Positions 26,105-52,340 of a stretch of 64,000 nt of DNA are shown here, piece by piece. The DNA is taken from positions 1 through 64,000 of the forward strand of contig NZ_BBXE01000022.1 in NCBI RefSeq assembly GCF_001570565.1, written 5' to 3'. The notes under the pieces were generated by a model. It did not search any database. It saw nothing but the letters and a program-made list of their open reading frames with translations, and was not told the origin of the DNA. Each line of letters begins with the position of its first letter. The stretch's first letter is position 1. This DNA comes from Herbidospora yilanensis (GTDB taxonomy: Bacteria; Actinomycetota; Actinomycetes; Streptosporangiales; Streptosporangiaceae). The position numbers and the translations under genes were made by a program.

Positions 26105-26935
26105 TCACGATGACGTGCTGATCCGCTCCTCTCCGGAGTAGACGTTCATGGACCGGCCACGCACGAACCCGAGCAGGGTCAACCCGGATTCGGCGGCCAG
26201 TTCCACCGCCAAGCTTGACGGCGCCGACACCGCGGCCAGCACCGGAACGCCCGCCATGACGGCCTTCTGGACGAGTTCGAACGAGGCCCTGCCCGACACC
26301 ATGAGCGCCGTTTGCCGAAGGGGCAGCCGGTCGTCGCGCAGCGCCCACCCGACGAGCTTGTCGACCGCGTTGTGACGGCCGACGTCCTCTCTGACGGCCA
26401 GCGCCCGCCCGGCCGGCGTGAACAGCCCGGCGGCGTGCAGGCCGCCGGTCCGGTCGAACACCTTCTGGGCGGTACGCAGCCTTTCGGGCAACTCGGCGAT
26501 GACCTCTTCGGAGAACGTGACGTCGTCGGGGGCGACGTCCCAGCGGGCGACGGTCCGGACCGCGTCGAGCGAGGCCTTGCCGCAGACGCCGCACGACGAG
26601 GTCGTGTAGAAGTTGCGCTCCAGGGAGGTGGCCGGCGGCCGTACGCCCGTCGTGAGCCGCACGTCGAGCACGTTGTAGGTGTTCTGGCCGTTCTCCAGGG
26701 CCCCCGCGCAGTAGCGGATCGCCTCGATGTCGCTCGCCTTGCCGATGACGCCCTCGCTGACGAGGAACCCGGCGGCGAGGTCGAAGTCGTCGCCGGGGGT
26801 GCGCATCGTGATGGTGAGCGGCTTGCCGTTGAGCCGGATCTCCAGCGGTTCCTCGGCGGCCAGCACGTCGACCCGGTGGTTGTGCCCGGTCTCCCGGAGC
26901 CGCAGGATCCGCCGCTGGACGGTGACCCTACCCAT
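26105..26935 (-). CDS. fdhD: Formate dehydrogenase accessory sulfurtransferase FdhD
   Basis: 276 aa. Transfers sulfur from a cysteine desulfurase to the Mo-bis-MGD cofactor, needed for active formate dehydrogenase. The functional CXXC (Cys115-Gly-Val-Cys118 in SSCGVCGK), EDVGRHNAVDKLVG and LMVSGRASFELVQKA are all present. It is the last gene of the fdh operon and overlaps the upstream small-subunit gene by 8 bp. Confidence 0.96.
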   Translation of the reverse strand: MGRVTVQRRILRLRETGHNHRVDVLAAEEPLEIRLNGKPLTITMRTPGDDFDLAAGFLVSEGVIGKASDIEAIRYCAGALENGQNTYNVLDVRLTTGVRPPATSLERNFYTTSSCGVCGKASLDAVRTVARWDVAPDDVTFSEEVIAELPERLRTAQKVFDRTGGLHAAGLFTPAGRALAVREDVGRHNAVDKLVGWALRDDRLPLRQTALMVSGRASFELVQKAVMAGVPVLAAVSAPSSLAVELAAESGLTLLGFVRGRSMNVYSGEERISTSS

Positions 26936-27794
26936 CGGAGGCCACGTTCTGGACGTGCTGGAAGCCGAACCGCCCCTTGATGCACAGGTTGCCGTGGGTC
27001 ACCGGGTTGTCGTGGGGGGAGGTGACCTTCACGATCGTGTTGTCCTGCACGTGGAGGGTCAGGTTGCAGCCCACGCCGCAGTAGCTGCAGATCGTGGTGG
27101 TCTGGGTCTGCCGATCTTCGTCCCAGGTGCCGGCCTCGCGCATGTCGAACTCGTTCTTGAACGACAACGCGCCCGTCGGGCAGACCTCGACGCAGTTGCC
27201 GCAGAACACGCACGCCGAGTCGGTCAGGGGGGCGTCGAACTCGGTGGAGATCGTGGCGTCGAAGCCGCGCCCGGCGACCGAGATGGCGAAGGAGTTCTGC
27301 CACTGCTCGCCGCACGCGTCGACGCACTTGTAGCACAGGATGCACTTGGCGTAGTCGCGCACGTAGAGGTCGTTGTCGACCTTCGGGGGCTCGGCGACCG
27401 TGGCGGCGTCTTCGCCGAAGCGGGCCGGGTCGGCCCCGTATTCGGCCATCCACTCCTTGGCGTTGGGAGTGGTCGACAGGTCGACCGAGGAGCCGAGCAG
27501 CTCCAGCACCACCTTGCGGCTGTGGCGGGCGCGGTCGGAATCGGTCTTCACGACCATGCCGGGTTCGGCCTTGCGGGAGCACGCCGGGGCGAGGGTGCGG
27601 GCGCCCTCGACCTCGACGACGCAGACCCGGCAGGCGTTCTTCGGGCTGAGGGTGTCGCCGTAGCAGAGGGTCGGGATGTCCTTGCCGGCCGTCTGGCAGG
27701 CGTCGAGCAGGGTGTCGCCTTCGGGGACGCGCATCGCCTCGCCGTCGACGGTGATCTCGATGAGCCGCCGTGGCGGACGCAGGGGGACGCTCAT
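26928..27794 (-). CDS. Formate dehydrogenase alpha subunit, N-terminal Fe-S half (separate gene)
   Basis: 288 aa carrying four Fe-S sites in the order found at the N-terminus of NAD-linked FdhA/FdsA: [2Fe-2S] (Cys44, 55, 58, 72), two ferredoxin-like [4Fe-4S] (Cys151/154/157/161 and Cys195/198/201/205), and the [4Fe-4S] motif of the molybdopterin domain (Cys236, 239, 243, 271 in CSYCGVGCNL). The chain stops just after LCIKGRFG, where FdhA normally continues into the Mo-binding body. That body is encoded by the first gene of the operon (29670-31595). Starts by ATGA overlap with fdhB. Confidence 0.9.
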   Translation of the reverse strand: MSVPLRPPRRLIEITVDGEAMRVPEGDTLLDACQTAGKDIPTLCYGDTLSPKNACRVCVVEVEGARTLAPACSRKAEPGMVVKTDSDRARHSRKVVLELLGSSVDLSTTPNAKEWMAEYGADPARFGEDAATVAEPPKVDNDLYVRDYAKCILCYKCVDACGEQWQNSFAISVAGRGFDATISTEFDAPLTDSACVFCGNCVEVCPTGALSFKNEFDMREAGTWDEDRQTQTTTICSYCGVGCNLTLHVQDNTIVKVTSPHDNPVTHGNLCIKGRFGFQHVQNVASDG

Positions 27795-29662
27795 GAGCTC
27801 TCCTTAGCCGTGAACACTCCAAGCCGGTCGATGGCCGATTCGACGGCGTTCCAGGCGGTCTGGCCCAGGCCGCAGATCGAGGCGTCGCGCATGGCCTGGC
27901 CCACCTCCCGCAGGAGCACCAGATCGCCCTCGCTGCGCCGTTTGGAGAGCCGGTGGAGGGCCTCCTCCTGGCGGACCGTGCCGACCCGGCAGGGCACGCA
28001 CTGGCCGCACGACTCGTCGCGGAAGAACTCGGCGATGCGCAGCAGCACGCCGGGCAGCTCGACCGTGTCGTTCAGCACCAGCACGACCCCGGAGCCGAGC
28101 GTGGCCCCGGCGGCGCGGGTGCCCTCGAAGGTCAGCGGGATGTCGAGCTCGTCGGCCCGCACGAACGCCCCGGCCGCACCGCCGAGCAGGACCGCCCGGA
28201 GCTCGCCGGTCGCGCCCCCGGCGAGGTCGAGCAGGTCGCGCAGGCTGGCGCCGAACGGAACCTCGTAGATGCCCGGCCGATCGACCGTGCCCGAGACGCA
28301 GAACAGCTTGGTGCCGGTCGACGACGACGTGCCGACGGCCGCGTAGGCGGCGGCGCCCATCTCAAGAATGTGGGGGACGTTGACGAGGGTCTCGACGTTG
28401 TTGACGACCGTGGGCTTGCCGAACAGGCCCTTCTCCACCGGGAACGGGGGCTTGGTCCGGGGCTCGCCCCGGAACCCCTCGATCGAGTTGAAGATCGCGG
28501 TTTCCTCGCCGCAGATGTAGGCCCCCGCGCCCCGCCGGATCTCGATGTCGAAGGAGAACCCCTGGCCGAGGATGTCGTCGCCCAGCAGGCCCCGCGACCG
28601 CGCGACGGATATCGCGTTCTCCAGCCGTTTGAGCGCGCGCGGGTACTCGCCCCGGATGTAGAGGTAGCCGAGGGCGCAGCCGTTGGCGTAACCCGCGATG
28701 GTCATGGCCTCGATCAGGGCGAACGGGTCGCCCTCCATCAGGACCCGGTCTTTGAAGGTGCCCGGCTCGCTCTCGTCGGCGTTGCAGACGAGGTAGTGGG
28801 GCCGGTCGAGCTGCCGCGCGGTCGCCTCCCACTTGCGGCCGGTGGGGAAGGCCGCGCCGCCCCGCCCGACGAGCCCGGACTCCAGGACCTCGCGGATGAC
28901 CCCGTTGGGACCGAGCTCGAAGGCCCGGCGTAAGCCGGTGTAGCCCCCGGTCGCCCGGTAGTCGTCGAGGCTCAGGGGGTCGACGACGCCGATGCGCCTG
29001 AGCAGGACCAGATCGTCGGGCCGGGGCGACCGGCCGCCCTCACCCGGAACGGCATCCGGGCCTGTCTGCCCGCGCGGTCGGGTCTGTGGCACCGCGGCCT
29101 CGACCGGAGGTTCTTCCGTCGTGGTCGGCCACTCCTGCCCGACGGCGCACGGCCCGTAGACCGCGTTCGCCGGGGGATCGCCCGCCTCGATCGCCAACGC
29201 GGCGGGAGCACGTTCGCACAGGCCCAGGCACGGGCTGGGCTGCCAGGAGACCCCGGGTGGGCCGAAGCGTTCCTCGACGTCGCGGCGGACCGCATCGGCG
29301 CCCTTGGCCGCGCACGCGAGGTCGGTGCAGACGTGGAGCACCCGCGCCTGGCGGGGCTTGACGGAGAACAGCGAGTAGAAGGTCGCCACCGAATAGGCCT
29401 CGGCCGGCGGGATCGTCAGACGGCGGCAGATGTAGTCGAGCGCGCCCTCGCTGATCCAGCCGACCCGGTCGTTGACCGCGTGGAGGGCGGGCAGCAGCAG
29501 GTCGCGGCGGTCGCGTGCCACCCGGGGGGCCTGCGTGGCGAAGCGCAGGTCGAACTCGGTGCGGTCGCCGCCGTCCCAGGCGGACGAGGGCGCCCCGAGG
29601 AGCGCGTCGACTGCGGCGCGCTCCTCGGCGGTCGGTTCGGCGTCGCGGAACCGAAGATCCAT
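27791..29662 (-). CDS. NAD-dependent formate dehydrogenase diaphorase subunit (NuoE-NuoF fusion)
   Basis: 623 aa. The N-terminal NuoE-like thioredoxin-fold domain holds a [2Fe-2S] site (Cys112, 117, 145, 149). After an acidic/Pro linker (about 190-215) comes a NuoF-like domain with the FMN/NAD signature (VGRGGAAFPTGRKW and NADESEPGTFKDR) and a [4Fe-4S] site (Cys552, 555, 558, 597). It would take electrons from the Fe-S chain and reduce NAD+. Such E-F fusions occur in soluble NAD-formate dehydrogenases and bidirectional hydrogenases. Second gene of the operon, 7 bp from the catalytic subunit gene. Confidence 0.92.
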   Translation of the reverse strand: MDLRFRDAEPTAEERAAVDALLGAPSSAWDGGDRTEFDLRFATQAPRVARDRRDLLLPALHAVNDRVGWISEGALDYICRRLTIPPAEAYSVATFYSLFSVKPRQARVLHVCTDLACAAKGADAVRRDVEERFGPPGVSWQPSPCLGLCERAPAALAIEAGDPPANAVYGPCAVGQEWPTTTEEPPVEAAVPQTRPRGQTGPDAVPGEGGRSPRPDDLVLLRRIGVVDPLSLDDYRATGGYTGLRRAFELGPNGVIREVLESGLVGRGGAAFPTGRKWEATARQLDRPHYLVCNADESEPGTFKDRVLMEGDPFALIEAMTIAGYANGCALGYLYIRGEYPRALKRLENAISVARSRGLLGDDILGQGFSFDIEIRRGAGAYICGEETAIFNSIEGFRGEPRTKPPFPVEKGLFGKPTVVNNVETLVNVPHILEMGAAAYAAVGTSSSTGTKLFCVSGTVDRPGIYEVPFGASLRDLLDLAGGATGELRAVLLGGAAGAFVRADELDIPLTFEGTRAAGATLGSGVVLVLNDTVELPGVLLRIAEFFRDESCGQCVPCRVGTVRQEEALHRLSKRRSEGDLVLLREVGQAMRDASICGLGQTAWNAVESAIDRLGVFTAKESS

Positions 29663-29669
29663 GCGTCGG

Positions 29670-31595
29670 TCACCCGGCCTTCGCGGGAACGAGGCGGTCG
29701 ATGCGCACCGCCGCGGCCTTGAACTCCGCCGTTCCGGCGATCGGGCAGGTCGCCTCGATCGTCAGGGCGTTGGTGTCGACCTCGTCGGGGAAGTGCATCG
29801 TCATGAAGACCAGGCCGGGACGCAGCGCCGGGTCGATGTAGACCGGGGCCACGACGGTGCCCCGCCGTGAGGAGACGCGGACCTCTTCGCCCGCGGTGAC
29901 GCCCAGCGTGGCGGCGTCTTCCGGGGACAACTCGATGTTCTCGCCGCGCCGCAGCGGGGAGGCGAAGCCGGAGCTCTGCACCCCCGTGTTGTAGGAGTCG
30001 AGGCGGCGGCCGGTGGTGAGCCGGAACGGGTATTCGTCGTCGAGCAGGTCGACCGGTGGCGAATGGCGCAGGATCGCGAACGGCGCCGGTCTGCCACGTT
30101 TGCCGGGGTCGGTCTCCCACAGCCGGCCGTGGAGGAACGGGGGTTCGAGCTCCTCGGTCGAGGGGCAGGGCCACTGGATGCCCTGGTGTTCGGCCAGCCG
30201 CTCGTAGGTCATGCCGTAGTGGGCGGGCGAGACCGAACGCAGTTCGTCCCAGACCTCTTCGGCGCCGGAGTAGTTCCAGTCGTGGCCGAGCCGGCGGGCC
30301 AGCTCGCACAGGATCCAGATGTCGTCGCGGGCCTCGCCCGGCGGCACCAGCGCGGCGCGCACCCGCTGGACACGGCGCTCGCTGTTGGTGAAGGTGCCGT
30401 CGGACTCGCACCAGGCCGCCCCGGCGGGCAGCACCACGTCGGCCATCTGGGCCGTCTTGGTCAGGAAGATGTCTTGGACGACCAGGTGGTCGAGCATGCT
30501 GAGCCGCTTGACGCAGCTCAGCGAGTCGGCCTCGGACTGGACCGGGTTCTCGCCGATCAGATAGCAGGTGGTGACCTCGCCCTCGGCCATGGCCTCGAGC
30601 ATCTCGGTCAGGTTGAGGCCGTAGCGGGGCTGGATGGGCACCTGCCAGGCCGACTCGAAGCGGGCCCGGATCGCGGGGTCGAGGATGTCTTGGAAGCCGG
30701 GGAGACGGTTGGGGATGGCGCCCATGTCGCCGCCGCCCTGCACGTTGTTCTGGCCGCGCAGCGGCGACAGGCCCGAGCCGTAGCGGCCGACGTGGCCGGT
30801 CAGCAGGGACAGGTTGATGAGGGCGCGCACGTTGTCGGTGGCGTTGTGGTGTTCGGTGATGCCGAGCGTCCACACCAGTTGCGCGCGGTCGGCGCGGGCG
30901 TAGGCGTGGGCCATCTCGCGGATCGCCTCGGCGGGCACGCCGGTGACCTGCTCGGCCGCCGACAGAGTCCACGGTTCGACGCTGGCGGCGTATTCGGCGA
31001 AACCCTCGGTGGCGCGCTCGATGAACGTCGTGTTGTGGAGACCGGCGTGGATGATCTCGCGGGCCACGGCGTGGGCGAGCGGGATGTCGGTGCCGACGTT
31101 GAGCCCCAGCCAGCGGTCGGCCCACTGGGCGGTGCCGGTCCGGCGGGGGTCGACGGCGAACATCCTGGCGCCCTTGCGGATGCCCTTGAGGACGTGCTGG
31201 AAGAAGATGGGGTGGGCGTTGCGGGCCGCCGAACCCCACATCAGGATCACGTCGGCGTCTTCGACCTCCTGGTAGGAGGAGGTGCCGCCGCCGCTGCCGA
31301 AGACGGCCGACAGGCCCGCCACGCTCGGGGCGTGGCAGGTGCGGTTGCACGAGTCGACGTTGTTGGTGCCGATGACCACCCGGGTGAACTTCTGGCCGAT
31401 GTAGTTCATCTCGTTGGTCGACCGGGCGCACGACAACATGGCGAAGGCGTTGGGCCCGTGGGCCGCCACGTTGCGCCGGAACCCCTCGGCCGCGCGGTCG
31501 AGCGCCTCATCCCACGTGGCCCGCCGCAGCACACCGTTCTCGCGCACCAGGGGATGGGTCAGCCGGTCGTAGTGCTCGGCCTTCTTCCTCTTCAT
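29670..31595 (-). CDS. Formate dehydrogenase catalytic (Mo-bis-MGD) subunit, lacking its N-terminal Fe-S part
   Basis: 641 aa. This is the molybdopterin oxidoreductase body: it starts at the segment that normally follows the first [4Fe-4S] motif (HPLVRENGVLRRATWDEALD). It has the Mo ligand and catalytic pair Cys87-His88 (DSCNRTCHAPSVAGL) and later the molydop-binding domain (about 530-635, FRLTTGRRLDSYNTG). Cys rather than Sec is used. Its missing [4Fe-4S] half is encoded by the third gene of the same operon. ATG at 31595 follows GGTGAGG. Regulatory motif at 31616-31637. Confidence 0.92.
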   Translation of the reverse strand: MKRKKAEHYDRLTHPLVRENGVLRRATWDEALDRAAEGFRRNVAAHGPNAFAMLSCARSTNEMNYIGQKFTRVVIGTNNVDSCNRTCHAPSVAGLSAVFGSGGGTSSYQEVEDADVILMWGSAARNAHPIFFQHVLKGIRKGARMFAVDPRRTGTAQWADRWLGLNVGTDIPLAHAVAREIIHAGLHNTTFIERATEGFAEYAASVEPWTLSAAEQVTGVPAEAIREMAHAYARADRAQLVWTLGITEHHNATDNVRALINLSLLTGHVGRYGSGLSPLRGQNNVQGGGDMGAIPNRLPGFQDILDPAIRARFESAWQVPIQPRYGLNLTEMLEAMAEGEVTTCYLIGENPVQSEADSLSCVKRLSMLDHLVVQDIFLTKTAQMADVVLPAGAAWCESDGTFTNSERRVQRVRAALVPPGEARDDIWILCELARRLGHDWNYSGAEEVWDELRSVSPAHYGMTYERLAEHQGIQWPCPSTEELEPPFLHGRLWETDPGKRGRPAPFAILRHSPPVDLLDDEYPFRLTTGRRLDSYNTGVQSSGFASPLRRGENIELSPEDAATLGVTAGEEVRVSSRRGTVVAPVYIDPALRPGLVFMTMHFPDEVDTNALTIEATCPIAGTAEFKAAAVRIDRLVPAKAG

Positions 31596-31615
31596 TGACC
31601 TCACCCTTTCGCATT

Positions 31616-31637
31616 CTGTATGCAGACTACGGTATGC
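31616..31637. promoter_or_regulatory. Operator site A upstream of fdhA
   Basis: CTGTATGCAG (31616-31625) and CTACGGTATGC (31627-31637) lie 21-42 bp upstream of the catalytic subunit gene. GTATGCAG is shared with sites C and D, and the reverse complement of the second part (GCATACCGTAG) matches the CATAC-N-GTA core of the others. Confidence 0.55.
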
Positions 31638-31641
31638 CCGC

Positions 31642-32625
31642 TCATGCGGCGCCAACAAGCCGGGTCTGGGTGTCGAGCAGATCGGTGACGGCATGGATCG
31701 CCCGGAGCGTGGGCACCGGGGTCTCGGTCAGGCCGGCCAGTTCGACCACCGCCGACAGCAGCACGTCGAGTTCGAGGGGCTTGCCCTTCTCCAGGTCCTG
31801 GAGCGTGGAGGTCTTGTGCTCGCCGGCCTTCTCGGCCCCGGCGAGCCGCCGCTCGATCGAGATGTGGGGGTTGCAGCCGACCGCCTGGGCGACCGCGACC
31901 GTCTCTTCCATCATGGTTCTGACGAGCTCGCGGGCGCCGGTGTGGCGGCAGATGCCGGCCATCGTCGCGCGGGCGAGCGCGCTGATCGGGTTGAACGCGA
32001 CGTTGCCCATCAGCTTGACCCAGATGTCTTTGCGCAGATCGGCTTCGACCGGGCATTTGAGGTCGCCGGCGACCATGGCGTTGCTGAACTCGACGCACCT
32101 GGGCGACAACCGCCCGCTGGGCTCGCCGATGGAGAAGCGGGTTCCTTCGAGGTGGCGGATCACGCCGGGGGCCTCGATCTCGGTGGCGGCGTAGACGACG
32201 CAGCCGATGGCGCGCTCCAGCGGGAGCGCCTCGGTCACCGAGCCGCCAGGGTCGACGCTCTCGATGCGGTAGCCGTCGTAGGGGCCGCCGAGCCGGTGGA
32301 AATACCACCACGGGATGCCGTTCTGGGCGGCGATGAGGCTGGTGGACTCGTGGAGCATGGGCGCGATCATCTGACCGGCCGCGGCGTAGGAGTTGGCCTT
32401 CAGGCCGAGGAAGACGTGGTCGACGGGGCCGACCTCGTGGGGATCGTCGGTGGTGTGCGGGTGGGCGGTGAAGTCGCCGCGCGGGCTGAGCACGCGCACG
32501 CCTGACTTCCGCATGGCCGCGAGATGCTCCCCGCGGGCTATCAGATGCACCTCGACGCCGGCGCGATGCAGGGCGGCCCCCACATACGCGCCGATGGCGC
32601 CGGCGCCAAGAACAGCGACCTTCAC
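31642..32625 (-). CDS. PanE-family (2-dehydropantoate 2-reductase-like) reductase, candidate oxalyl-CoA reductase
   Basis: 327 aa. The N-terminal Rossmann domain begins KVAVLGAGAIGAYVGAALHRAG, typical of NADPH-dependent ketopantoate reductases. A conserved KANS follows (GLKANSYAAA, catalytic Lys region), and the C-terminal domain has KDIWVKLMGNVAFNPISALARATM. In Methylobacterium extorquens a PanE-family protein (PanE2) was assigned as oxalyl-CoA reductase for oxalate assimilation. Placement here between fdh, moeA and the frc locus, with a shared operator, makes the same role likely. Pantoate synthesis is the alternative. GTG at 32625 has CGGAGC 5 nt upstream. Confidence 0.85.
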   Translation of the reverse strand: MKVAVLGAGAIGAYVGAALHRAGVEVHLIARGEHLAAMRKSGVRVLSPRGDFTAHPHTTDDPHEVGPVDHVFLGLKANSYAAAGQMIAPMLHESTSLIAAQNGIPWWYFHRLGGPYDGYRIESVDPGGSVTEALPLERAIGCVVYAATEIEAPGVIRHLEGTRFSIGEPSGRLSPRCVEFSNAMVAGDLKCPVEADLRKDIWVKLMGNVAFNPISALARATMAGICRHTGARELVRTMMEETVAVAQAVGCNPHISIERRLAGAEKAGEHKTSTLQDLEKGKPLELDVLLSAVVELAGLTETPVPTLRAIHAVTDLLDTQTRLVGAA

Positions 32626-32656
32626 ACTAGCTCCGTTCTCGCGTCGACAGTGCATT

Positions 32657-32671
32657 CGGTATACGGTATGG
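32657..32671. promoter_or_regulatory. Operator site B between panE-like gene and moeA
   Basis: CGGTATACGGTATGG; its reverse complement CCATACCGTATACCG differs from site E (CCATACGGTATACCG) at one position. It lies 32 bp from the panE-like start and 28 bp from the moeA start, so it could control both divergent genes. Confidence 0.65.
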
Positions 32672-32698
32672 CAACGGTGTCGTCAAGGAGGTCGACCG

Positions 32699-33892
32699 AT
32701 GACCGTGTTGTCGCATACCCGGCCCGAACACGCCGCCGGGCACGCCGACCTGCCCTGGGATCACGCCCGCCGGCTCGCCGCCGCGGCCACGCTGCCGCTG
32801 GTCGCGGCGGAGGTCCCGCTGTCGTCCGCCCACGGCCGCCGGCTCGCCGCCGCGCTGCGTGCGCTCGTGGCCCTGCCGGGCGCGGACCTGTCGGCGATGG
32901 ACGGCTACGCGGTCGGCGGCCCCGGCCCGTGGCAGGTCGTCGGCGGCGTGCTCGCCGGGGGTGCGCCGTTCCCGAGGGAACTCGGTCCGGGCGAGGCCGT
33001 GGAGATCGCCACGGGGGCGCCCGTGCCCGAGGGGGCGGTCTGCGTGGTGCCGTACGAAAAGACGGAGCGGGCCGGGCCGGTGATCGGCGGGCCGTGTGAG
33101 CCGGGCAGGCACATCAGGCGGCGGGGGGAGAACGTCTCCGAGGGCGAGGTCGTGCTGACCTCCGGGGCACTGGTCACGCCGGCGGTGCTCGGGCTGGCCG
33201 CCGGGCTCGGCCACGACACCCTGTGGGTGCGGCCGCGGCCCGTCGTGTCGGTGCTGGTCACCGGTGACGAGGTGGTGGGCTCGGGGGTTCCGGGGGCCGG
33301 GCTCGTGCGCGACGCGATGGGGCCGATGCTGCCGCCGCTGATCGCCTCGGCCGGGGGCGAGGCGCTGCCGCCGCGCCACCTGCCCGACGGGGCCGGGGTG
33401 CTGGAGGCCGCCCTCGGGGAACCAGGGGCCGACGTCGTCGTGGTCTGCGGCGCGTCGTCGAAGGGGCCGGCCGATCACCTGCGCGGCGTGCTCGGCCGGC
33501 TCGGCGCGGCGGTCCTGGTCGACGGCGTCGCGGTGCGGCCCGGCCATCCGCAGGCCCTCGCCCGGCTTCCGGGAGGGCGGCTGGTGGTCGGGCTGCCCGG
33601 CAATCCCTTCGCCGCCCTGGCGGCCGCGATGACGCTGCTGGTGCCGGTGTTGCGTGCCCTTGACGGGCGGCCCGAGCCCGAAGGCGAGCTCAGCGCCGTC
33701 GCCGGGCCGGTGCGCGCTCATCGGCGCGACACCCGCCTGGTGCCCGTCTGGAGATCGGCGCGCGGCGCGATCCCGGTGGGCCACGACCAGCCCGGGTCGC
33801 TGCGAGGTGCGGCGATGGCCGACGCCCTGGCCGTGATCCCGCCCGGCTGGGAGGGCGGCCCGGTGGAGCTTCTCGCGCTGCCCCTGCGGTAA
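32699..33892 (+). CDS. moeA: Molybdopterin molybdenumtransferase MoeA
   Basis: 397 aa. Inserts molybdate into adenylated molybdopterin to give Mo-cofactor. Family features: LSAMDGYAV (residues about 64-72), EIATGAPVPEGA, RRRGENV, VLVTGDEVV, and the C-terminal LVVGLPGNPFAALA. Several usual residues are altered (GASSKGPADHL in place of the common GGVSVGDYD). ATG at 32699 with AAGGAGG upstream. A cluster copy beside a Mo-formate dehydrogenase suggests dedicated cofactor supply. Confidence 0.9.
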   Translation: MTVLSHTRPEHAAGHADLPWDHARRLAAAATLPLVAAEVPLSSAHGRRLAAALRALVALPGADLSAMDGYAVGGPGPWQVVGGVLAGGAPFPRELGPGEAVEIATGAPVPEGAVCVVPYEKTERAGPVIGGPCEPGRHIRRRGENVSEGEVVLTSGALVTPAVLGLAAGLGHDTLWVRPRPVVSVLVTGDEVVGSGVPGAGLVRDAMGPMLPPLIASAGGEALPPRHLPDGAGVLEAALGEPGADVVVVCGASSKGPADHLRGVLGRLGAAVLVDGVAVRPGHPQALARLPGGRLVVGLPGNPFAALAAAMTLLVPVLRALDGRPEPEGELSAVAGPVRAHRRDTRLVPVWRSARGAIPVGHDQPGSLRGAAMADALAVIPPGWEGGPVELLALPLR

Positions 33893-33962
33893 CCGGTTCG
33901 AAATCTTGTAACCCGCCGGAAAGGTATGGACATCCTCGGAAGCCGGGGGTAACCATGTTCCT

Positions 33963-33976
33963 CATACGGTATGCAG
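33963..33976. promoter_or_regulatory. Operator site C upstream of the ThDP enzyme gene
   Basis: CATACGGTATGCAG, an exact 14-bp match to the reverse complement of site D (45270-45283), lies 46-59 bp upstream of the start at 34022. Confidence 0.65.
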
Positions 33977-34021
33977 TATGGCGTAGACGCAAGCAGAAAC
34001 GTCTTTGAGAGGACGGCCCTG

Positions 34022-35704: not shown

Positions 35705-35712
35705 GGAGCGGC

Positions 35713-36939: not shown

Positions 36940-36940
36940 G

Positions 36941-40711: not shown

Positions 40712-40712
40712 C

Positions 40713-42286: not shown

Positions 42287-42316
42287 CCCGTTTCACCCGG
42301 CTTCACCCGGCTTCAC

Positions 42317-42350: not shown

Positions 42351-42411
42351 TTCACCTCAGTGCATCAGTGTTGGGTTTCGCCCCCGGATGACGCCGGAGG
42401 CTGGGGGCGGG

Positions 42412-43862: not shown

Positions 43863-43918
43863 CGGGTTTCTCAACTCCTGGAAACGACCACTAAAATGTT
43901 TGTCGTCGACTGCCTACA

Positions 43919-43929
43919 GCATACATTCC
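43919..43929. promoter_or_regulatory. Operator-like site F upstream of the GntR gene
   Basis: GCATACATTCC, about 57 bp upstream of the regulator start, shares GCATAC and ATTCC elements with the other sites but lacks the full palindrome. Confidence 0.35.
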
Positions 43930-43988
43930 AGACATTATCGCTGGCCGTGACATCGCTCACATCGGCCTGTCGCAATTCGTAACGGTCT

Positions 43989-45275: not shown

Positions 45276-45283
45276 ACCGTATG
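45270..45283. promoter_or_regulatory. Operator site D at the MFS gene start
   Basis: CTGCATACCGTATG, whose reverse complement CATACGGTATGCAG is identical to site C. It overlaps the MFS start codon, so a bound repressor would block initiation. Confidence 0.65.
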
Positions 45284-45332
45284 GAATATCCCAAGCATCG
45301 CCTCTTGTCGAGAGGGGTTTACGACCTCGGTT

Positions 45333-45347
45333 CCATACGGTATACCG
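45333..45347. promoter_or_regulatory. Operator site E upstream of sucC
   Basis: CCATACGGTATACCG, centred on the perfect palindrome ACGGTATACCGT (45337-45348), lies 28-42 bp upstream of the sucC start. This is the most symmetric copy of the motif. Confidence 0.7.
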
Positions 45348-45374
45348 TCTACAAGATGCGTTGAGGGAGGCCCG

Positions 45375-46526
45375 ATGGACCTGTTCGAGCACCAGGCGAA
45401 GGAGCTGTTCGCGCGCTACGGCGTTCCCGTCCCCGAGGGGGCGGTGGCGGCGACGCCCGAGGAGGCGCGCGCCATAGCCGCCGAGCTGGCCGGGCCGGTC
45501 GTGGTCAAGGCCCAGGTGAAGACGGGCGGCCGCGGCAAGGCCGGCGGCATCAAGCCCGCTCCCGGCCCGGCCGCGGCGGAAGACGCCGCGCGGGCGATCC
45601 TCGGGATGGACATCAAGGGTCACCTGACCCGGCGGGTCCTCGTCGAGGTGGCCAACGTGCCGGCCGAGGAGTACTACGCGGCCTTCCTGGTCGATCGCGC
45701 GGCCGGGTCGTTCCTGGCGATGTGCTCGGCCTCGGGCGGCATGGAGATCGAGGAACTGGCGGCCACCGATCCGGGCGCGCTGGTCAAAGTGCCGATCGAT
45801 CCGCTGCGCGGGGTCGACCACGAGACGGCGACCTTCATCGTCACCGAGGCGGGCCTGCCCGCCGACGTCGCGGGCGAGGCGGCCGGCATCCTCGTCGGCT
45901 TATGGAAGGTCATGGCCGGTGAAGACGCCGTGCTCGTCGAGGTCAACCCGCTGGCCCGCACCGCCGACGGCCGCGTGCTCGCCCTCGACGGCAAGGTCAC
46001 GCTCGACGAGAACGCCGACTACCGGCACGAACGCCCCGCCGGCGAAACCACGGGCGGTGACGATCTGGAGAGCCGGGCCAAGGCCAAGGGCCTCAACTAC
46101 GTCAAGCTCGACGGGTCCGTCGGCGTCATCGGCAACGGCGCGGGGCTCGTCATGAGCACCCTCGACGTCGTCGCGCAGGCCGGCGCCAGGCCCGCCAACT
46201 TCCTCGACATCGGCGGTGGCGCCTCCGCCCAGGTCATGGCCGACGGCCTCGGCGTCATCCTGTCCGACCCCGACGTGAAATCGGTGCTGGTCAACGTGTT
46301 CGGCGGGATCACCGCCTGTGACGCGGTGGCCGACGGCATCGTGGCCGCCCTCGCCACGCTCGGCGAGCAGGGTGCGACCCACCCGATCGTGGTGCGGCTC
46401 GACGGCAACAACGCCGAGGCGGGCCGCCGGATCCTCGATCAGGCCGCACACCCCGCCGTCCGGCAGGTCCCGACCATGGACGGCGCCGCCGAAGAGGCGG
46501 CCAGGCTGGCCAACGCGGCCGCGTGA
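45375..46526 (+). CDS. sucC: Succinate-CoA ligase (ADP-forming) beta subunit, island copy
   Basis: 383 aa. ATP-grasp domain at the N-terminus ([38 protein letters not shown]) and ligase domain at the C-terminus ([35 protein letters not shown]), as in the SucC/MtkA family. ATG behind GAGGGAGG. It begins a tight operon sucC-sucD-hyi-glxR-gcl-aldh preceded by operator E. Linkage to glyoxylate genes rather than TCA genes suggests a specialised CoA ligase, for instance acting on oxalate, malate or another dicarboxylate, but the sequence itself looks like normal SucC. Confidence 0.9.
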
Positions 46527-46539
46527 GGAGACCCCCAGA

Positions 46540-47409
46540 ATGTCGATCTTCCTGAGCAAGGACAGCCGCGTCGTCGTGCAGGGCATGACCGGCGCCGAAG
46601 GCGGCAGGCACACCGCCCGCATGGTCGCCGCGGGCACCAACGTCGTGGCCGGGGTGACGCCGGGCAAGGGCGGCCTGGTCCATCAGGGCATCCCGGTGTT
46701 CTCGTCGGTCGCCGAGGCGATGGATTCGACCGGCGCCGACGTGTCGGTGGTGTTCGTGCCGCCCCGGTTCACCAAGGGCGCGGTCCTCGAAGCGGTCGAC
46801 GCCGGGATCGGGTTGTGCGTGGTGATCACCGAAGGCGTGCCCGTACACGACAGTCTCGAGTTCCTGACCCTGGCCAGGCAGAGCACGACCCGGATCATCG
46901 GGCCCAACTGCCCCGGCCTGATCTCGCCCGGCGCCTCCAACGCCGGCATCATCCCGGCCGACATCACCGCGCCCGGGCGCATCGGCCTGGTGTCCAAGTC
47001 GGGCACCCTGACCTACCAGCTCATGTACGAGCTCCGCGACCTCGGGTTCTCCACGGCGGTGGGGATCGGCGGCGACCCGGTCATCGGCACCACCCACATC
47101 GACTGTCTGCGCGCCTTCCAAGACGACCCCGACACCGACGCGATCGTCATGATCGGCGAGATCGGCGGCGACGCCGAAGAACGCGCCGCCGCCTACATCG
47201 AGCAGCACGTCACCAAGCCGGTCGTCGCCTATGTCGCCGGGTTCACCGCGCCCGAGGGCAAGACGATGGGCCACGCGGGCGCGATCATCTCCGGCTCGGC
47301 CGGCACCGCCCAGGCCAAGAAAGAGGCCCTGGAGAAGGTCGGCGTCAGCGTCGGCCGCACCCCCAGCGAGACCGCCCGGCTCATGCGCGCGCTGCTGGAG
47401 GCCGCATGA
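46540..47409 (+). CDS. sucD: Succinate-CoA ligase alpha subunit, island copy
   Basis: 289 aa. The CoA-binding Rossmann domain ([37 protein letters not shown]) is followed by the ligase domain with [25 protein letters not shown] and the phospho-histidine motif [10 protein letters not shown]. Length equals normal SucD. It is 13 bp after sucC and overlaps hyi by 4 bp. Forms an alpha/beta enzyme with the preceding gene; see sucC for the substrate question. Confidence 0.92.
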
Positions 47410-48200
47410 ACACGCTCAGGTTCGACGTCAACCTGTCGATTCTGTTCACCGAGCTGCCGCTGCTCGAACGGTTCGAGGCCGCCGCGAAGGCCGGGTTCGA
47501 CGCCGTCGAGTTGTGGTGGCCGTTCGACGGTCCGCAACCGTCCGAGCTCGAACTCGACCGGCTGCGCACGGCCGTCGACGATGCCGGGGTCCGGCTCGTC
47601 GGGCTCAACTTCGACGCGGGCGACATGGCCCAGGGCGACCGCGGTCTGGTCTCCTCCCCCGGCGGGTCGGCGCGGTTCCGGGCCAACGTCGAGGTCGCCG
47701 TGGGGCTGGCCGAGTCGCTCGGGTGCCGGCGGCTGAACGCGCTCTACGGCAACGCCGAACCCGACGTGTCCGTAGAGGTCCACCGGGCCATCGCGGTGGA
47801 GAACCTGCTCTACGCCGCCGAGGTGGCCGACCAGGCCGGGGCGATGGTGCTGGTCGAGGCGCTCAACTCCCATGAGAGCCCGGCCTACCCGATCGTCTCG
47901 TCCGAGGAGGCGTTCCGGCTGCTCGACCAGGTGGGCGTGGCCAACGTCGGGTTCCTGGCCGACCTCTACCACCTGCACCGCATGGGAGAAGACGTCCTCG
48001 ACCTGATCGGCCGCCAGTGGGAGCGGTTCGGTCACGTGCAGATCGCCGACGATCCGGGGCGGGGGCAGCCGGGCACCGGCGCCATGCCCTACGACCGGAT
48101 CTTCGCCCGGCTGGCGGCCACCGGCTACGACGGCCACGTGGGCCTCGAATACCGTCCGGTCGGCCCGAGCGCCGACAGTTTCGCCTGGAGGAACGGATGA
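47406..48200 (+). CDS. hyi: Hydroxypyruvate isomerase
   Basis: 264 aa TIM-barrel. Interconverts hydroxypyruvate and tartronate semialdehyde. The family start [37 protein letters not shown] is clear, and the metal ligands lie in [34 protein letters not shown] and GLEYRP. Overlaps sucD (ATGA) and glxR (ATGA). Together with GlxR and Gcl it forms the glycerate pathway of glyoxylate assimilation. Confidence 0.93.
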
Positions 48201-49066
48201 ACATCGGCTTCATCGGCCTCGGCATCATGGGCACGCCCATGGCCGTCAACCTCGTCCGGGCCGGGCACACCGTGGTCGGCTACGACGTCAGCACCACCCG
48301 GCTCGACGAACTGGCCGAGCTCGGCGGCAAGGCCGCGGCGAGCATCGGCGAGGCGGTCTCGCAGGCCCATGTGGTGATCACCATGCTGCCCGACTCCCCG
48401 CAGGTCGAAGAGGTCGTCTTCGGCGAGGGCGGGGTGCTCGAACACGCCCCGGCGGGGCTGCTCCTGATCGACATGAGCACCATCCGTCCCGAGACCTCGC
48501 GCCGGGTCGCGCAGGCGGCGGTGGTGAAGGGCGTACACGCCATCGACGCGCCCGTCAGCGGCGGGGAGAAGGGCGCGGTCGACGGCACTCTGTCGATCAT
48601 GATCGGGGGCCGGGCCGAAGACGTCGAGTCGGCCCGGGAGATCCTGCGGGTGCTCGGCACCACGATCGTCCACGTGGGGCCCGCCGGGGCCGGGCAGACC
48701 GTCAAGGCCGCCAACCAGCTCGTCGTCGGCGGAACCTACGCCCTGGTCGCCGAGGCGATCGTGCTGCTGGAGGCCTCGGGCGTCGACCCGAAGGCGGGCC
48801 TCGACGTGCTCGCGGGCGGCCTGGCCGGGTCGCGGATCCTGGAGCTCAAGCGCCACTCCATGATCGAGCGCAGCTTCCAGCCGGGCTTCCGCGTCGACCT
48901 GCACCACAAAGACATGGGCATCGCCACCGCCGCCGCCCGCGAGGCCGGAGTCGCGCTGCCCATGACGGCGCTGGTCGCCCAGCTCATCGCGGCGGCCAGG
49001 GCCCAGGGCCACGGCGCGCTCGACCACTCCGCCCTGCTGAAAGTGATCGAAAGGATCAATTCGTGA
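48197..49066 (+). CDS. glxR: 2-hydroxy-3-oxopropionate (tartronate semialdehyde) reductase
   Basis: 289 aa beta-hydroxyacid dehydrogenase. Reduces tartronate semialdehyde to D-glycerate. N-terminal NAD(P) motif IGFIGLGIMGTPMAVNL, substrate-binding IDAPVSGGEKGAVDGTLSIMIGG, catalytic Lys170 in GQTVKAANQL, and HHKDMGIA near the C-terminus. ATGA overlap with hyi and GTGA overlap with gcl. Confidence 0.93.
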   Translation: MNIGFIGLGIMGTPMAVNLVRAGHTVVGYDVSTTRLDELAELGGKAAASIGEAVSQAHVVITMLPDSPQVEEVVFGEGGVLEHAPAGLLLIDMSTIRPETSRRVAQAAVVKGVHAIDAPVSGGEKGAVDGTLSIMIGGRAEDVESAREILRVLGTTIVHVGPAGAGQTVKAANQLVVGGTYALVAEAIVLLEASGVDPKAGLDVLAGGLAGSRILELKRHSMIERSFQPGFRVDLHHKDMGIATAAAREAGVALPMTALVAQLIAAARAQGHGALDHSALLKVIERINS

Positions 49067-50787
49067 AGCGGATCCCCTGCATGGAGGCGGCCGTCGCGGT
49101 GATGGAGAGCGAAGGCGTCGACACCGTCTTCGGCATCCCGGGCGCGGCGATCCTGCCGCTCTACGCGGCCCTTCAGCACAGTTCGATCAAGCACATCACG
49201 GTCCGCCACGAAGAGGGCGGCACCCACGCCGCCGACGGCTGGGCGCGGGTCACCGGGAACGTCGGCGTCTGCATCGGCACCTCCGGCCCGGCGGGCACCA
49301 ACATGATCACCGGGCTCTACACGGCGCTGGCCGACTCGATCCCGATGATCTGCATCACCGGCCAGGCCGCGCGGAGCAAGCTCCATCAGGAGGCCTTTCA
49401 GGCGGTCGACATCGTCGAGATCGCCAAGCCGGTGACCAAGTGGGCGGTCCAGCTCAAAGAGCCCGCGCAGGCCGCGTGGGTGTTCCGCGAGGCGTTCCGC
49501 ATCGCCCGGTCGGGGCGGCCGGGGCCGGTCCTGATCGACCTGCCGATCGACGTCCAGCGCGGCACCTGCCTCTACGACCCCGAGCTCGACGCGCCGCTGC
49601 CCGTCGACGTGCCGCAACCCTTACCCAAGGCCGTCGCGGCGGCGGTCGACATGTTGTCGGCCGCCGAACGCCCGCTCATCCTCGCGGGCGGCGGCGTCGT
49701 CATCGCCGACGCCTCGACCGAGCTGCGGGCGCTGGCCGAACACCTCCAGGTGCCGGTCCAGGTCACCCTGATGGGCAAGGGCGCCTTCCCCGAAGACCAC
49801 CCGCTGTTCGCCGGCATGGCCGGCATCCAGACCCAGACCCGGTGGGGCAACGCGGCGTTCCTCGAGAGCGACCTGGTGCTGGCGGTCGGCGCCCGATTCG
49901 GCGACCGGCACACCGGCGACCTCGACGTCTACCGCAAGGGCCGCCAGTTCATCCACGTCGACATCGAGCCGACCCAGATCGGCCGGGTCTTCGAGCCCGA
50001 CCTCGGGGTCGTCGGGCACGCCCGGCCGACGCTGGCGGCGATGGCCACCGAGGCGCAGAGCCGCGGCAAGGCCAGACGCGCGTCGGCGTGGGCCCACCGG
50101 GTCGGCGAACTACGGCGGACACTCCCGCGCCGCGACGACTTCGACGAGGTGCCGATCAAGCCACCGCGGGTGTTCCGGGAGCTCAACGAGTTCTACGGCC
50201 CCGACACGACCTTCGTGACCGCCATCGGGCTCTACCAGATCTGGTCGGGCCAGTTCCAGAAGACCTACCTGCCGCGCCGCTACCTCGTCTGCGGCCAGGC
50301 CGGGCCGCTGGGCTGGGAGGTGCCGGCGGCGATGGGCGTGAAGTGCGCCCACCCCGACCGCGAGGTCGTCGTGGTCGTCGGCGACTACTCCTTCCAGTTC
50401 CTGATGGAAGAGGTCGCGGTCGCCGCGCAATACCAGATCCCGTTCGTCATCGTCATGATCAACAACGAATACCTGGGGCTGATCCGGCAGGCCGAGATCC
50501 CCTACGACATGAACTTCGCCGTCGACCTCCACTACGGCGAGGGCGGCATCGACCACGTGAAGGCCATGGAGGCCTTCGGCTGCCCGGCCCGCCGGGTCGA
50601 GGAGCCCGGCGACATCCGGCCCGCCCTCGAATGGGCCACCGCCGAAGCCCACCGCTCACGGCTTCCGGTGCTGGTCGAGGTCATGGTCGAACGCGAGGCC
50701 AACGCCGCGATGGGCCCGTCGCTCGACGCCGTCAAGGAGTTCGAGCCGCTGCCCGTGCTGGCCGAAGACATCGACTGGTCCGACTGA
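49063..50787 (+). CDS. gcl: Glyoxylate carboligase-like ThDP enzyme
   Basis: 574 aa. Expected reaction: two glyoxylate to tartronate semialdehyde plus CO2. It aligns along its length with Gcl (GVDTVFGIPGAAILPLYAAL, SGPAGTNMITGLYTALADSIPMICITGQA, QAGPLGWEVPAAMG, GDYSFQFLMEEVAV ending at NNEYLGLIRQAEI). One oddity: Glu50 occupies the place of Val51, the residue that marks E. coli Gcl among ThDP enzymes. It also lacks the short insertion after the cofactor domain seen in E. coli Gcl. GTG start overlaps glxR. Confidence 0.85.
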   Translation: MKRIPCMEAAVAVMESEGVDTVFGIPGAAILPLYAALQHSSIKHITVRHEEGGTHAADGWARVTGNVGVCIGTSGPAGTNMITGLYTALADSIPMICITGQAARSKLHQEAFQAVDIVEIAKPVTKWAVQLKEPAQAAWVFREAFRIARSGRPGPVLIDLPIDVQRGTCLYDPELDAPLPVDVPQPLPKAVAAAVDMLSAAERPLILAGGGVVIADASTELRALAEHLQVPVQVTLMGKGAFPEDHPLFAGMAGIQTQTRWGNAAFLESDLVLAVGARFGDRHTGDLDVYRKGRQFIHVDIEPTQIGRVFEPDLGVVGHARPTLAAMATEAQSRGKARRASAWAHRVGELRRTLPRRDDFDEVPIKPPRVFRELNEFYGPDTTFVTAIGLYQIWSGQFQKTYLPRRYLVCGQAGPLGWEVPAAMGVKCAHPDREVVVVVGDYSFQFLMEEVAVAAQYQIPFVIVMINNEYLGLIRQAEIPYDMNFAVDLHYGEGGIDHVKAMEAFGCPARRVEEPGDIRPALEWATAEAHRSRLPVLVEVMVEREANAAMGPSLDAVKEFEPLPVLAEDIDWSD

Positions 50788-50801
50788 GAGGGACGACAGC
50801 C

Positions 50802-52340
50802 ATGCCGCTCATGCTCAAACCGGGCACGGCCTGGTCCGACGCCTACGGCCGCTGCGTCGACCTGGCCCCCGAGGCGTTCAACGACGACCGGGTGCTCAAC
50901 CACTGGGGAGGCATCTGGCACCGCGACGGCCGCACCACCCCCGCCGTCACCCCGGTCGACGGCACGTCCATCGCCGGGCCGCCCCGCCTCGACCGTTCGG
51001 CCGCCGCGCGGGCCGTCCACGCCGCCGTCGACGAACACCGCCGCTGGCGGCACACCCCCGTGGCCGAACGCGCCGCCCGGGTGTCGGCCGCGCTCGACGC
51101 GATGGAGGCCCACCGCGACCTGCTGTCGCTGCTGCTGGTCTGGGAGATCGGCAAACCGTGGAAGCTCGCGACCGCCGACGTCGACCGGTGCATCGAGGGC
51201 GTCCGCTGGTATGTCGGCGAGATCGCCCGCATGACCGACGGCCGCGTCCCCCTGGCCGGTCCGGTCTCCAACATCGCGAGCTGGAACTACCCGATGAGCG
51301 TGCTCATGCACGCCATGCTGGTGCAGGTCCTGGCCGGCAACGCCGCCATCGCCAAGACCCCCACTGACGGCGGCCTTTCCTGCCTGACCCTCGCGACCGC
51401 GCTCGCCGTCCGCGAAGGCCTCCCGCTGACCCTCGTGTCGGGGAGCGGGTCGGAGTTGTCGCGGGTGCTGGTGCGCGGCCAGGAGATCGGCTGCGTGTCC
51501 TTCGTCGGCGGCCGCGACACCGGCGGCCAGGTCGCCACGTCGCTGGCCGACCTCGGGCGGCGGCACATCCTCGAACAGGAGGGCCTCAACTGCTGGGGGG
51601 TCTGGGAATACAGCGACTGGGCCACCCTGACCGGCCAGATCCGCAAGACCTACGACTACGCCAAACAGCGGTGCACGGCCTACCCGAGGTTCATCGTGCA
51701 GCGGTCGGCGTTCGACCACTTCCTGGCGGCCTACCTGCCCGCCGTGCAAGGGGTGCGATTCGGGCATCCCCTCGCCGTCGAGTCGGCCGACGACCCGCTG
51801 CCGGAGCTCGACTTCGGCCCGCTGATCAACAACGCCAAGGTGAAAGACCTGGCCGACCAGGTCGACGAGGCGATTTCCAAGGGCGGCGTGCCACTGTTCC
51901 GGGGAGCGCTGGATGACGGGCGGTTCCTGCCGGGGCAGGACATCTCGGCCTACATGGCCCCGGTGGCGATCCTCGCGCCGCCTCGCTCCTCACCGCTGTT
52001 CCACGCCGAACCGTTCGGCCCGGTCGACACGGTGGTGCTCGTCGACACCGAAGCCGAGCTGCTCGCGGCGATGAACGCCAGCAACGGGGCCCTGGTCGCG
52101 ACCATCTCGTGCGACGACATCCGCACCGCGTCACGACTCGCCTCCGAGGTGCGGGCCTTCAAGGTGGGGCACAACACGCCCCGCTCGCGGGGTGACCGTG
52201 AAGAGTTGTTCGGCGGGTTCGGCGGGTCGTGGCGGGGGGCGTTCGTGGGGGGTGAACTGCTGGTCCGCGCGGTGACCCAGGGGCCCGCCGACGAACGGCT
52301 GCCGGGGAACTTCGGGAACCAGACGCTGTTACCGGCATAA
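50802..52340 (+). CDS. NAD(P)-dependent aldehyde dehydrogenase
   Basis: 512 aa ALDH-superfamily enzyme. Oxyanion-hole Asn162 in ASWNYP, cofactor Lys in AIAKTPTDGG, general-base Glu260 in LEQEGLN and catalytic Cys291 in AKQRCTAYPR are present, so it should be active. The usual GQxC is AKQRC and GxTxxG is SFVGGRDTGG. It follows gcl by 14 bp with GAGAGGG before ATG 50802. Possible substrates by context are glyoxylate, glycolaldehyde or tartronate semialdehyde; none can be chosen from sequence. Confidence 0.85.
   Translation: MPLMLKPGTAWSDAYGRCVDLAPEAFNDDRVLNHWGGIWHRDGRTTPAVTPVDGTSIAGPPRLDRSAAARAVHAAVDEHRRWRHTPVAERAARVSAALDAMEAHRDLLSLLLVWEIGKPWKLATADVDRCIEGVRWYVGEIARMTDGRVPLAGPVSNIASWNYPMSVLMHAMLVQVLAGNAAIAKTPTDGGLSCLTLATALAVREGLPLTLVSGSGSELSRVLVRGQEIGCVSFVGGRDTGGQVATSLADLGRRHILEQEGLNCWGVWEYSDWATLTGQIRKTYDYAKQRCTAYPRFIVQRSAFDHFLAAYLPAVQGVRFGHPLAVESADDPLPELDFGPLINNAKVKDLADQVDEAISKGGVPLFRGALDDGRFLPGQDISAYMAPVAILAPPRSSPLFHAEPFGPVDTVVLVDTEAELLAAMNASNGALVATISCDDIRTASRLASEVRAFKVGHNTPRSRGDREELFGGFGGSWRGAFVGGELLVRAVTQGPADERLPGNFGNQTLLPA

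Follow-up and report, generated by a model that had tools for sequence, protein, structure and literature searches.

A block of genes at positions 26105 to 52340 of the stretch analysed here (64,000 nucleotides of Herbidospora yilanensis, assembly GCF_001570565.1, contig NZ_BBXE01000022.1, positions 1 to 64,000 of the forward strand; the window) raises the question of which enzyme would decarboxylate oxalyl-CoA beside a strong formyl-CoA:oxalate CoA-transferase gene (frc) in a genome with no oxalyl-CoA decarboxylase (Oxc) of the canonical kind. The gene next to frc encodes a thiamine diphosphate (ThDP) enzyme of another clade. With a probability of about 0.7 the block is read as an oxalate-use regulon in which this enzyme serves as a non-orthologous oxalyl-CoA decarboxylase. 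The family identities, the operators, the synteny and the near-exclusive alternation with canonical Oxc were established by sequence comparison, and the reading is built on them. What is probably new is the regulon motif together with such a decarboxylase in actinomycetes and some Pseudomonadota, not the mixture of genes; no description of a substitute decarboxylase of this type or of this operator was found in the available portions of the open-access PMC literature.

The ThDP enzyme beside frc

Three adjoining genes form the core of the block:

34022..35704, + strand: ThDP enzyme, proposed non-orthologous oxalyl-CoA decarboxylase (33971, within the operator, is another possible start)
35713..36939, + strand: frc, formyl-CoA:oxalate CoA-transferase family (TIGR03253, 656.9 bits, cut-off 504.2)
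36941..39067, + strand: beta-alpha ADP-forming acyl-CoA ligase (ACD type)

Comparison of synteny across actinomycetes, which an earlier note on this DNA had proposed, bore out this core. The three genes stand together in 14 of 14 related genomes, chosen for retrieval by their possession of the ThDP enzyme. A search with the ThDP protein gave 587 matches, of which the best 80 were kept as named loci; the presence of the ThDP gene in these is by construction, and the linkage of the other two genes is conditional on it. The ThDP gene was found in 80 of them, frc in 80 and the ACD gene in 79. One relative, G016, has an in-frame stop within the ThDP match.

Frc scored over the TIGR03253 cut-off and is 54% identical to E. 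coli Frc. Residues Q17, D169, G259 and G260 were kept in 80 of 80 homologues (the glycines were mapped by motif, the first position of the GGGG run being Ser), and position 48 is Gln, which matches the reported consensus (PMC10192776).

The ThDP enzyme gave 243.5 bits with the Oxc model TIGR03254, far under the cut-off of 739.4, and no Oxc over this cut-off was found in any of 41 genomes searched, including the host; the E. coli control passed. The enzyme is 24.5% identical to E. coli Oxc and 24.8–28.8% to five actinobacterial Oxc proteins, which are themselves 59.7–61.0% identical to E. coli Oxc. Known Oxc members share about 50% identity or more according to a similarity network (PMC7190790), a level that the ThDP enzyme does not reach. 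Six residues have been described as key in Oxc, namely E56, Y120, E121, Y483, S553 and R555, the last only about half conserved (PMC10192776). E56 is kept in 80 of 80 ThDP homologues and the other five are replaced by L, Q, I, G and M, respectively (E. coli Oxc positions were assigned by motif, and the alignment has an indel near Y483). Score, identity and residues rule out a divergent but ordinary Oxc; the energy route through known Oxc that the earlier note had supposed is not borne out by these comparisons or by the 41 genomes.

The best NCBIfam match was PRK05858 'acetolactate synthase' (505.7 bits, under the cut-off of 587), and the 2-hydroxyacyl-CoA lyase (HACL) model NF058623 gave 362.3 bits, under its cut-off of 600. 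Identity to the actinobacterial HACL (AcHACL) is 35.6%; the nearest PDB sequences are those of AcHACL (7pt1 and related entries, 279–280 bits), and an AlphaFold model (predicted local distance difference test score, pLDDT, 84) was closest to HACL/2-hydroxyacyl-CoA synthase (HACS) and AcHACL structures. In a tree of 16 of the 80 loci plus the window, in which AcHACL and Gcl sit on long branches, the island enzymes formed a single clade (100/100 support) apart from canonical Oxc and from eight sampled paralogues. By sequence the ThDP enzyme belongs to a separate clade near the 2-hydroxyacyl-CoA lyases.

Alternation with canonical Oxc

A sample of 296 genomes of the class, with frc called at E <= 1e-120, contained 25 genomes with frc. 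The ThDP type lies beside frc in 20 of them, which have no Oxc over the cut-off, and the other five carry canonical Oxc. A further 18 sub-cut-off matches, all in frc-less genomes, were taken as paralogues, and five of the ten genomes with canonical Oxc are without frc at this threshold.

The same alternation was followed in 295 genomes of genus g49 (the genus of G160), which is probably Streptomyces: in a comparison with the 80 named loci, the nearest one was a named Streptomyces locus for 13 of 18 g49 stretches; for the other five (G129 in part, G218, G406, G567 and G358) it was L169, from a Saccharothrix metagenome-assembled genome. The ThDP type was taken as a sub-cut-off TIGR03254 match with E <= 1e-66. 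Of the 144 genomes with frc, 113 have the ThDP type only (adjacency to frc was computed for part of these, and the sub-cut-off match of G346 may be a paralogue), 27 canonical Oxc only, two both and two neither; every genome with either enzyme has frc. Among the frc-positive genomes Fisher's test, which ignores relatedness, gave p ~1e-24.

The slot itself was inspected in 15 g49 genomes with canonical Oxc. In nine of them (G129, G235, G516, G571, G588, G580, G342, G541 and G527) sucC-sucD-aldehyde dehydrogenase, the operator described below and frc are present and the place of the ThDP gene is empty, operator and frc being no more than about 600 bp apart; canonical Oxc is encoded elsewhere in those genomes, in G129 at 21 kb from frc. 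There is no ACD gene in the stretches of G235, G516 and G571. In G406, G567 and G507 frc and the ACD gene stand with no ThDP gene, and the stretch has no sucCD; G423 has both enzymes in separate units. The stretches of G358 and G218 were partly covered, and those viewed for G541, G527 and G507 exclude the contig with canonical Oxc.

The exchange extends to Pseudomonadota; here the gene calls on plasmids from Cupriavidus, Caballeronia, Azospirillum and Methylobacterium come from tblastn alone. Two Cupriavidus islands have panE, gntR, frc, sucCD and the operator in common: that of Cupriavidus metallidurans has the ThDP type and the ACD gene, that of C. campinensis canonical Oxc. In Caballeronia the same difference separates M1242, which has the ThDP type, from SBC1, which has canonical Oxc; no operator was found in either and no sucCD in the SBC1 stretch. 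The C. campinensis and SBC1 records were not among the matches listed by a ThDP search of the plasmid collection, which did not extend to their chromosomes. On a Phyllobacterium plasmid the ThDP gene lies near a true OxlT gene (601 bits, cut-off 335), frc, the ACD gene, two sucCD pairs and panE. In genomic terms the ThDP enzyme is a partner of frc that is exchangeable with known Oxc; that it and canonical Oxc alternate in units of like composition suggests equivalent roles.

The operator and the extent of the block

A palindrome, first spotted in translated upstream regions, is common to four promoters of the block, listed here with the gene of its proposed binder:

32660..32670: operator TATACGGTATG, between panE and moeA
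33963..33973: operator CATACGGTATG, upstream of the ThDP-frc-ACD operon
45273..45283: operator CATACCGTATG, at the start of the major facilitator superfamily (MFS) carrier gene
45334..45344: operator CATACGGTATA, at the sucC promoter
43134..43865, - strand: GntR/FCD regulator, proposed operator binder

Four copies of ATACSGTAT were counted in the window against 0.03 expected, and four of ATACNGTAT against 0.05 expected. In the whole 7.85-Mb genome the form YATACSGTATR has four sites, all at promoters of the block, with no control matches; with the centre relaxed to any base there were still four, against two control matches. All four sites are kept in five of six genomes of the same genus and in G015 and G018, and the sixth has three, its contig being cut. 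In 77 of the 80 named loci the ThDP match is preceded, at a distance of up to 600 bp, by a core site; over all 80 loci 191 core sites were found against one reversed-control site in 1.62 Mb. A site also precedes canonical oxc by about 95 bp in G406 and by about 215 bp in C. campinensis, and lies 3–10 kb from canonical oxc in G129, G218, G235, G516, G571, G342 and G358.

The block extends from fdhD to the end of an aldehyde dehydrogenase gene and spans 26 kb. Profile searches with NCBIfam and Pfam bore out its gene content and, with it, the coordinates and gene list of the earlier note, in which the aldehyde dehydrogenase and an open reading frame (ORF) of 185 amino acids had gone unmentioned. 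The fdhD gene, an Fe–S subunit, a NuoE-NuoF fusion, the catalytic subunit of a formate dehydrogenase (FDH) and panE run leftward, and moeA, the ThDP-frc-ACD genes, an Nramp-like carrier, the 185-residue ORF and a TerC gene rightward. Further to the right the regulator and the MFS carrier are encoded leftward and sucC, sucD, hyi, glxR, gcl and the aldehyde dehydrogenase rightward. The remaining genes are:

26105..26935, - strand: fdhD, formate dehydrogenase sulfurtransferase (NF001943, 401.7 bits, cut-off 269)
26928..27794, - strand: formate dehydrogenase Fe-S subunit, NuoG-like N-terminus plus Molybdop_Fe4S4 domain
27791..29662, - strand: NuoE-NuoF fusion, NADH-linked FDH subunit
29670..31694, - strand: FDH catalytic subunit without its own Fe4S4 domain (TIGR01591, 641.7 bits, just under the cut-off of 666.25)
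31642..32628, - strand: PanE/ApbA-family reductase, candidate oxalyl-CoA reductase (NF005089, 443.6 bits, cut-off 223)
32699..33892, + strand: MoeA-type molybdenum cofactor gene (under NCBIfam equivalog cut-offs)
39215..40711, + strand: Nramp-fold carrier without the usual metal-site motifs (NF037982, 453.6 bits, cut-off 50)
40713..41270, + strand: 185-residue ORF without a family match, apparently a membrane protein as judged by eye (in 46 of 80 loci)
41267..42286, + strand: TerC/Alx-type membrane protein
43989..45275, - strand: MFS carrier, distant OxlT relative (the ATG at 45275 overlaps the operator)
45372..46526, + strand: sucC paralogue (NF001913, 476.8 bits, cut-off 370)
46540..47409, + strand: sucD paralogue (449.5 bits, over the cut-off; 78% identity with the genome's other copy)
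47406..48200, + strand: hyi, hydroxypyruvate isomerase family (TIGR03234, 297.6 bits, under the cut-off of 353.45)
48197..49066, + strand: glxR, tartronate semialdehyde reductase (TIGR01505, 366.3 bits, cut-off 340.75)
49063..50787, + strand: gcl, glyoxylate carboligase (NF008431, 885.9 bits, cut-off 791)
50883..52340, + strand: aldehyde dehydrogenase, subfamily not assigned

Since the flanks of the 80 named loci were cut at 10 kb, the following counts are lower bounds: MFS carrier 60, GntR 57, PanE 54, SucC 52, Nramp-like carrier 47, 185-residue ORF 46, TerC 44, SucD 31, fdhD 28, moeA 28, FdhA 23, aldehyde dehydrogenase 23, FdhBF 22, FdhG 18, hyi 3, glxR 3 and gcl 1. A compact Streptomyces form, found also on a Streptomyces plasmid, has sucC-sucD-aldehyde dehydrogenase on one side and ThDP-frc-ACD-MFS on the other. 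No FDH genes were found in the fetched 40 kb of G006, of the same genus as the host, and hyi-glxR-gcl is present in eight of the 14 related genomes, several of the remainder being on short contigs. The inconstancy of FDH and hyi-glxR-gcl across relatives makes them look like additions.

From the four genome sites and their recurrence in relatives, the block looks like one regulon, and the GntR/FCD protein, within reach in those 57 loci, would be the binder of the operator. A chance neighbourhood is ruled out by operators and synteny. The block behaves as the single oxalate unit of the earlier note, with a strong Frc and an operator that ties four promoters; its FDH, moeA and hyi-glxR-gcl parts are not universal.

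Some observations on these sites stand apart. Given the overlap of the ATG at 45275 with the operator, the true start of the MFS gene may lie further in, and the starts or transcripts at 45273–45283 (MFS) and 33963 (ThDP) may be leaderless or begin further in. On an Azospirillum oryzae plasmid (L268) a copy of ATACNGTAT at position 11781 directly precedes a PanE homologue (47%); a gcl homologue is about 6 kb away, and neither frc nor oxc was matched in the stretch. Outside the island, a LigD-type primase-polymerase gene adjoins an RPE65-family gene (window positions 55713–58209).

A proposed route for oxalate, its rivals and known systems

In the scheme that we infer for every reaction, transport step and regulator–operator contact, a single switch of the GntR/FCD type would control about 20 genes through ATACNGTAT palindromes. 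Oxalate would enter via the MFS carrier, the Nramp-fold carrier or both. Frc would put CoA on oxalate, and the ThDP enzyme, in place of the standard decarboxylase, would convert the resulting oxalyl-CoA to formyl-CoA and CO2; Frc would then recycle the CoA and free formate, which the molybdenum-dependent FDH, where present, would oxidise with formation of NADH. Part of the oxalyl-CoA would be reduced by PanE to glyoxylate, which Gcl and GlxR would take on to glycerate, and SucCD and the ACD ligase would re-prime the CoA pool when this reduction drains oxalyl-CoA.

The PanE protein is a member of its PanE/ApbA subfamily by score (NF005089, over the cut-off), and the assimilation branch through PanE and Gcl/GlxR, as put forward in the earlier note, fits the predicted families. 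The FDH alpha subunit is split (26928–31694): the Fe–S N-terminus with its Fe4S4 domain and the catalytic part are separate ORFs with the NuoE-NuoF fusion between them, an arrangement that recurs in relatives.

Several observations count against an oxalate regulon with a substitute decarboxylase. FDH, moeA and hyi-glxR-gcl are its inconstant parts. Y120, E121, Y483 and S553 of Oxc are all replaced in 80 of 80 homologues, and in an OXC from a mycobacterium the exchange of three corresponding residues for alanine was reported to leave about 10% activity (PMC7190790); in favour of the reading, a plant OXC, with Phe-Gln at the Tyr-Glu site and Tyr kept at the Y483 site (PMC9090294), is a partial precedent for the pocket. 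The nearest solved sequences and folds are 2-hydroxyacyl-CoA lyases/synthases and not classical Oxc. No upstream operator was found in three of the 80 named loci. The flanked (strict) form is absent from five of six g49 genomes of the ThDP type and lies on other contigs only in the sixth, and flanked sites lie off the ThDP contig in some relatives (three of four in G012, for example). The canonical oxc stretches of G580, G588, G423, G077 and G186 have no site, G077 and G186 being from another family of the class. Inspection of five more panE loci on plasmids showed frc and canonical oxc nearby in two and neither gene within the stretch in the other three, which makes PanE alone a weak oxalate marker. 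The aldehyde dehydrogenase occurs in 52 of the 296 genomes, 32 of them frc-negative and many of these in one other family of the class. Finally, the substitutions E135G, A415C, Y497F and S568G shifted a Methylobacterium OXC from decarboxylation towards carboligation; the engineered enzyme gained glycolyl-CoA synthesis, and its decarboxylation fell, not to zero (PMC8411744).

The ThDP enzyme is changed at the equivalents of all four engineered sites (E121, A415, Y483 and S553; Q, G, I and G here, mapped by motif), and its closest PDB relatives are AcHACL and HACS enzymes. It might therefore be an HACL-type carboligase or lyase that joins a one-carbon unit, from formyl-CoA or from oxalyl-CoA decarboxylated on the enzyme, to an aldehyde such as glyoxylate, or that runs in reverse; oxalate carbon would then be conserved and not released as formate. 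The ACD ligase could remake formyl-CoA for such a reaction, and an aldehyde dehydrogenase belongs to the same regulon. However, the ThDP type alternates with canonical Oxc in g49, Cupriavidus and Caballeronia, and many islands keep FDH, as expected if formate is the product, so that this role is judged unlikely. The wider proposal of a natural formyl-CoA/oxalyl-CoA carboligase, with the island as a one-carbon extension route from oxalate widespread in actinomycetes (for instance via a tartronyl-CoA or glycolyl-CoA type intermediate), is a shade less probable again.

The genes at the right end admit another substrate. Gcl and GlxR scored over their cut-offs, and the catalytic motifs tested in the aldehyde dehydrogenase were all kept in 37 of 37 sequences, as they might be in an island for glyoxylate, glycolate or another 2-hydroxyacid, with sucCD-hyi-glxR-gcl-aldehyde dehydrogenase as the main pathway and oxalyl-CoA as a side metabolite. 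This is decidedly improbable: Gcl, GlxR and Hyi are missing from the compact Streptomyces units as far as these were fetched, whereas frc is constant, Frc is a strong member of the oxalate family and one plasmid island contains a bona fide OxlT.

The aldehyde dehydrogenase was found in 20 of the 25 frc-positive genomes of the class sample; a role dedicated to the island is ruled out by the 32 frc-negative carriers among 296 genomes. Thirteen of those 32 loci were inspected, and no island conserved without frc, the case that the earlier note had named as contrary to its view, was seen among them. In 12 there was no other island gene in the fetched stretch. The thirteenth (L265, G209:C1:1289000-1308999, of g49, no frc detected) has the aldehyde dehydrogenase gene and an adjoining sucD fragment and is apparently a decayed island. 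Pfam gave no assignment for the neighbours in three of the aldehyde dehydrogenase-positive, frc-negative loci.

SucCD scored over the curated cut-offs, and the catalytic His motif GHAGA of SucD was kept in 45 of 45 sequences. A malate-CoA ligase is ruled out by the score of the beta-subunit model (325.9 bits, cut-off 604) and by the 78% identity of SucD to the other copy. That identity makes succinate a likely substrate, which would suit SucCD, Frc and the aldehyde dehydrogenase running in the oxalate-forming, ATP-generating direction; all three enzyme types occur together in the island. The aldehyde dehydrogenase, however, has the Glu that serves as general base in non-acylating enzymes, and a decarboxylase-type ThDP enzyme, FDH and, in one relative, OxlT point to consumption of oxalate. 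The precedent is Pseudomonas fluorescens, in which glyoxylate is converted to oxalyl-CoA, CoA is transferred to succinate and ATP is gained from succinyl-CoA (PMC2752808); for the island such a direction has the slimmest of chances.

The MFS carrier, taken in the earlier note as OxlT-type, gave 52 bits with TIGR04259 (cut-off 335), 62 bits with TIGR00890 (cut-off 374.85) and only 20.9 bits with the OxlT chain 8hpj, and that assignment falls. The metal-site motifs of Nramp proteins are DPGN and MPH. In the Nramp-like carrier they are replaced by near-invariant GMGE-type and GMQQ-type motifs in 48 of 48 sequences, so that its cargo may not be a metal and could be an organic anion or metal-oxalate. 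The Nramp assignment itself stands by the NF037982 score and by fold, as far as a weak model (pLDDT 61) tells: the top Foldseek matches are Nramp proteins, with YcsG among the nearest folds, and a PDB sequence search with the protein gave nothing useful. The 185-residue ORF had no family match in profile searches that included PHROGs.

The oxalate-carbonate pathway draws on the turnover of oxalate by soil bacteria, for which oxc and frc serve as marker genes in surveys. Should the ThDP enzyme prove to be a decarboxylase, the oxc marker misses most of the frc-positive g49 genomes (the 113 of 144 with the ThDP type only) and all 14 of the island-bearing relatives of the host that were examined. 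With the regulon motif it would also be possible to find oxalate genes that are homologous to neither frc nor oxc, and the pocket of a natural enzyme of this kind bears on the divergence of OXC and HACL chemistry.

Canonical Oxc loci of another family of the class (L209 of G186, L210 of G077 and L213 of G110) have no ATACNGTAT within the fetched stretch; in G110 there is also no frc nearby in that stretch. The closest known system is the Frc/Oxc pathway of Oxalobacter and of E. coli frc-oxc. The island shares with it an Frc over the cut-off with its key residues kept and a predicted CoA-dependent handling of oxalate, and in G406 and C. campinensis the same operator precedes canonical oxc; the difference is that in the island a ThDP enzyme from a separate clade, with five of six residues changed, occupies the decarboxylase slot. 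Oxalate assimilation in Methylobacterium runs via the oxalyl-CoA reductase PanE2. The island, with a PanE-family gene and gcl-glxR, resembles this route by family, PanE2 being the name used for Methylobacterium (PMC8411744); on a Methylobacterium bullatum plasmid neither frc nor oxc was matched within 12 kb of the PanE homologue (40% identity). Cupriavidus oxalaticus has an operon for oxalate degradation and assimilation (PMC9476978), to which the island is likened by description only. PRK05858, although the best NCBIfam match of the ThDP enzyme, stays under its cut-off, and the island clade lies apart from the sampled paralogues. AcHACL shares Leu-Gln with the ThDP enzyme at the Tyr-Glu site of Oxc and differs from it at the Y483 position, where AcHACL has Glu and the ThDP enzyme Ile.

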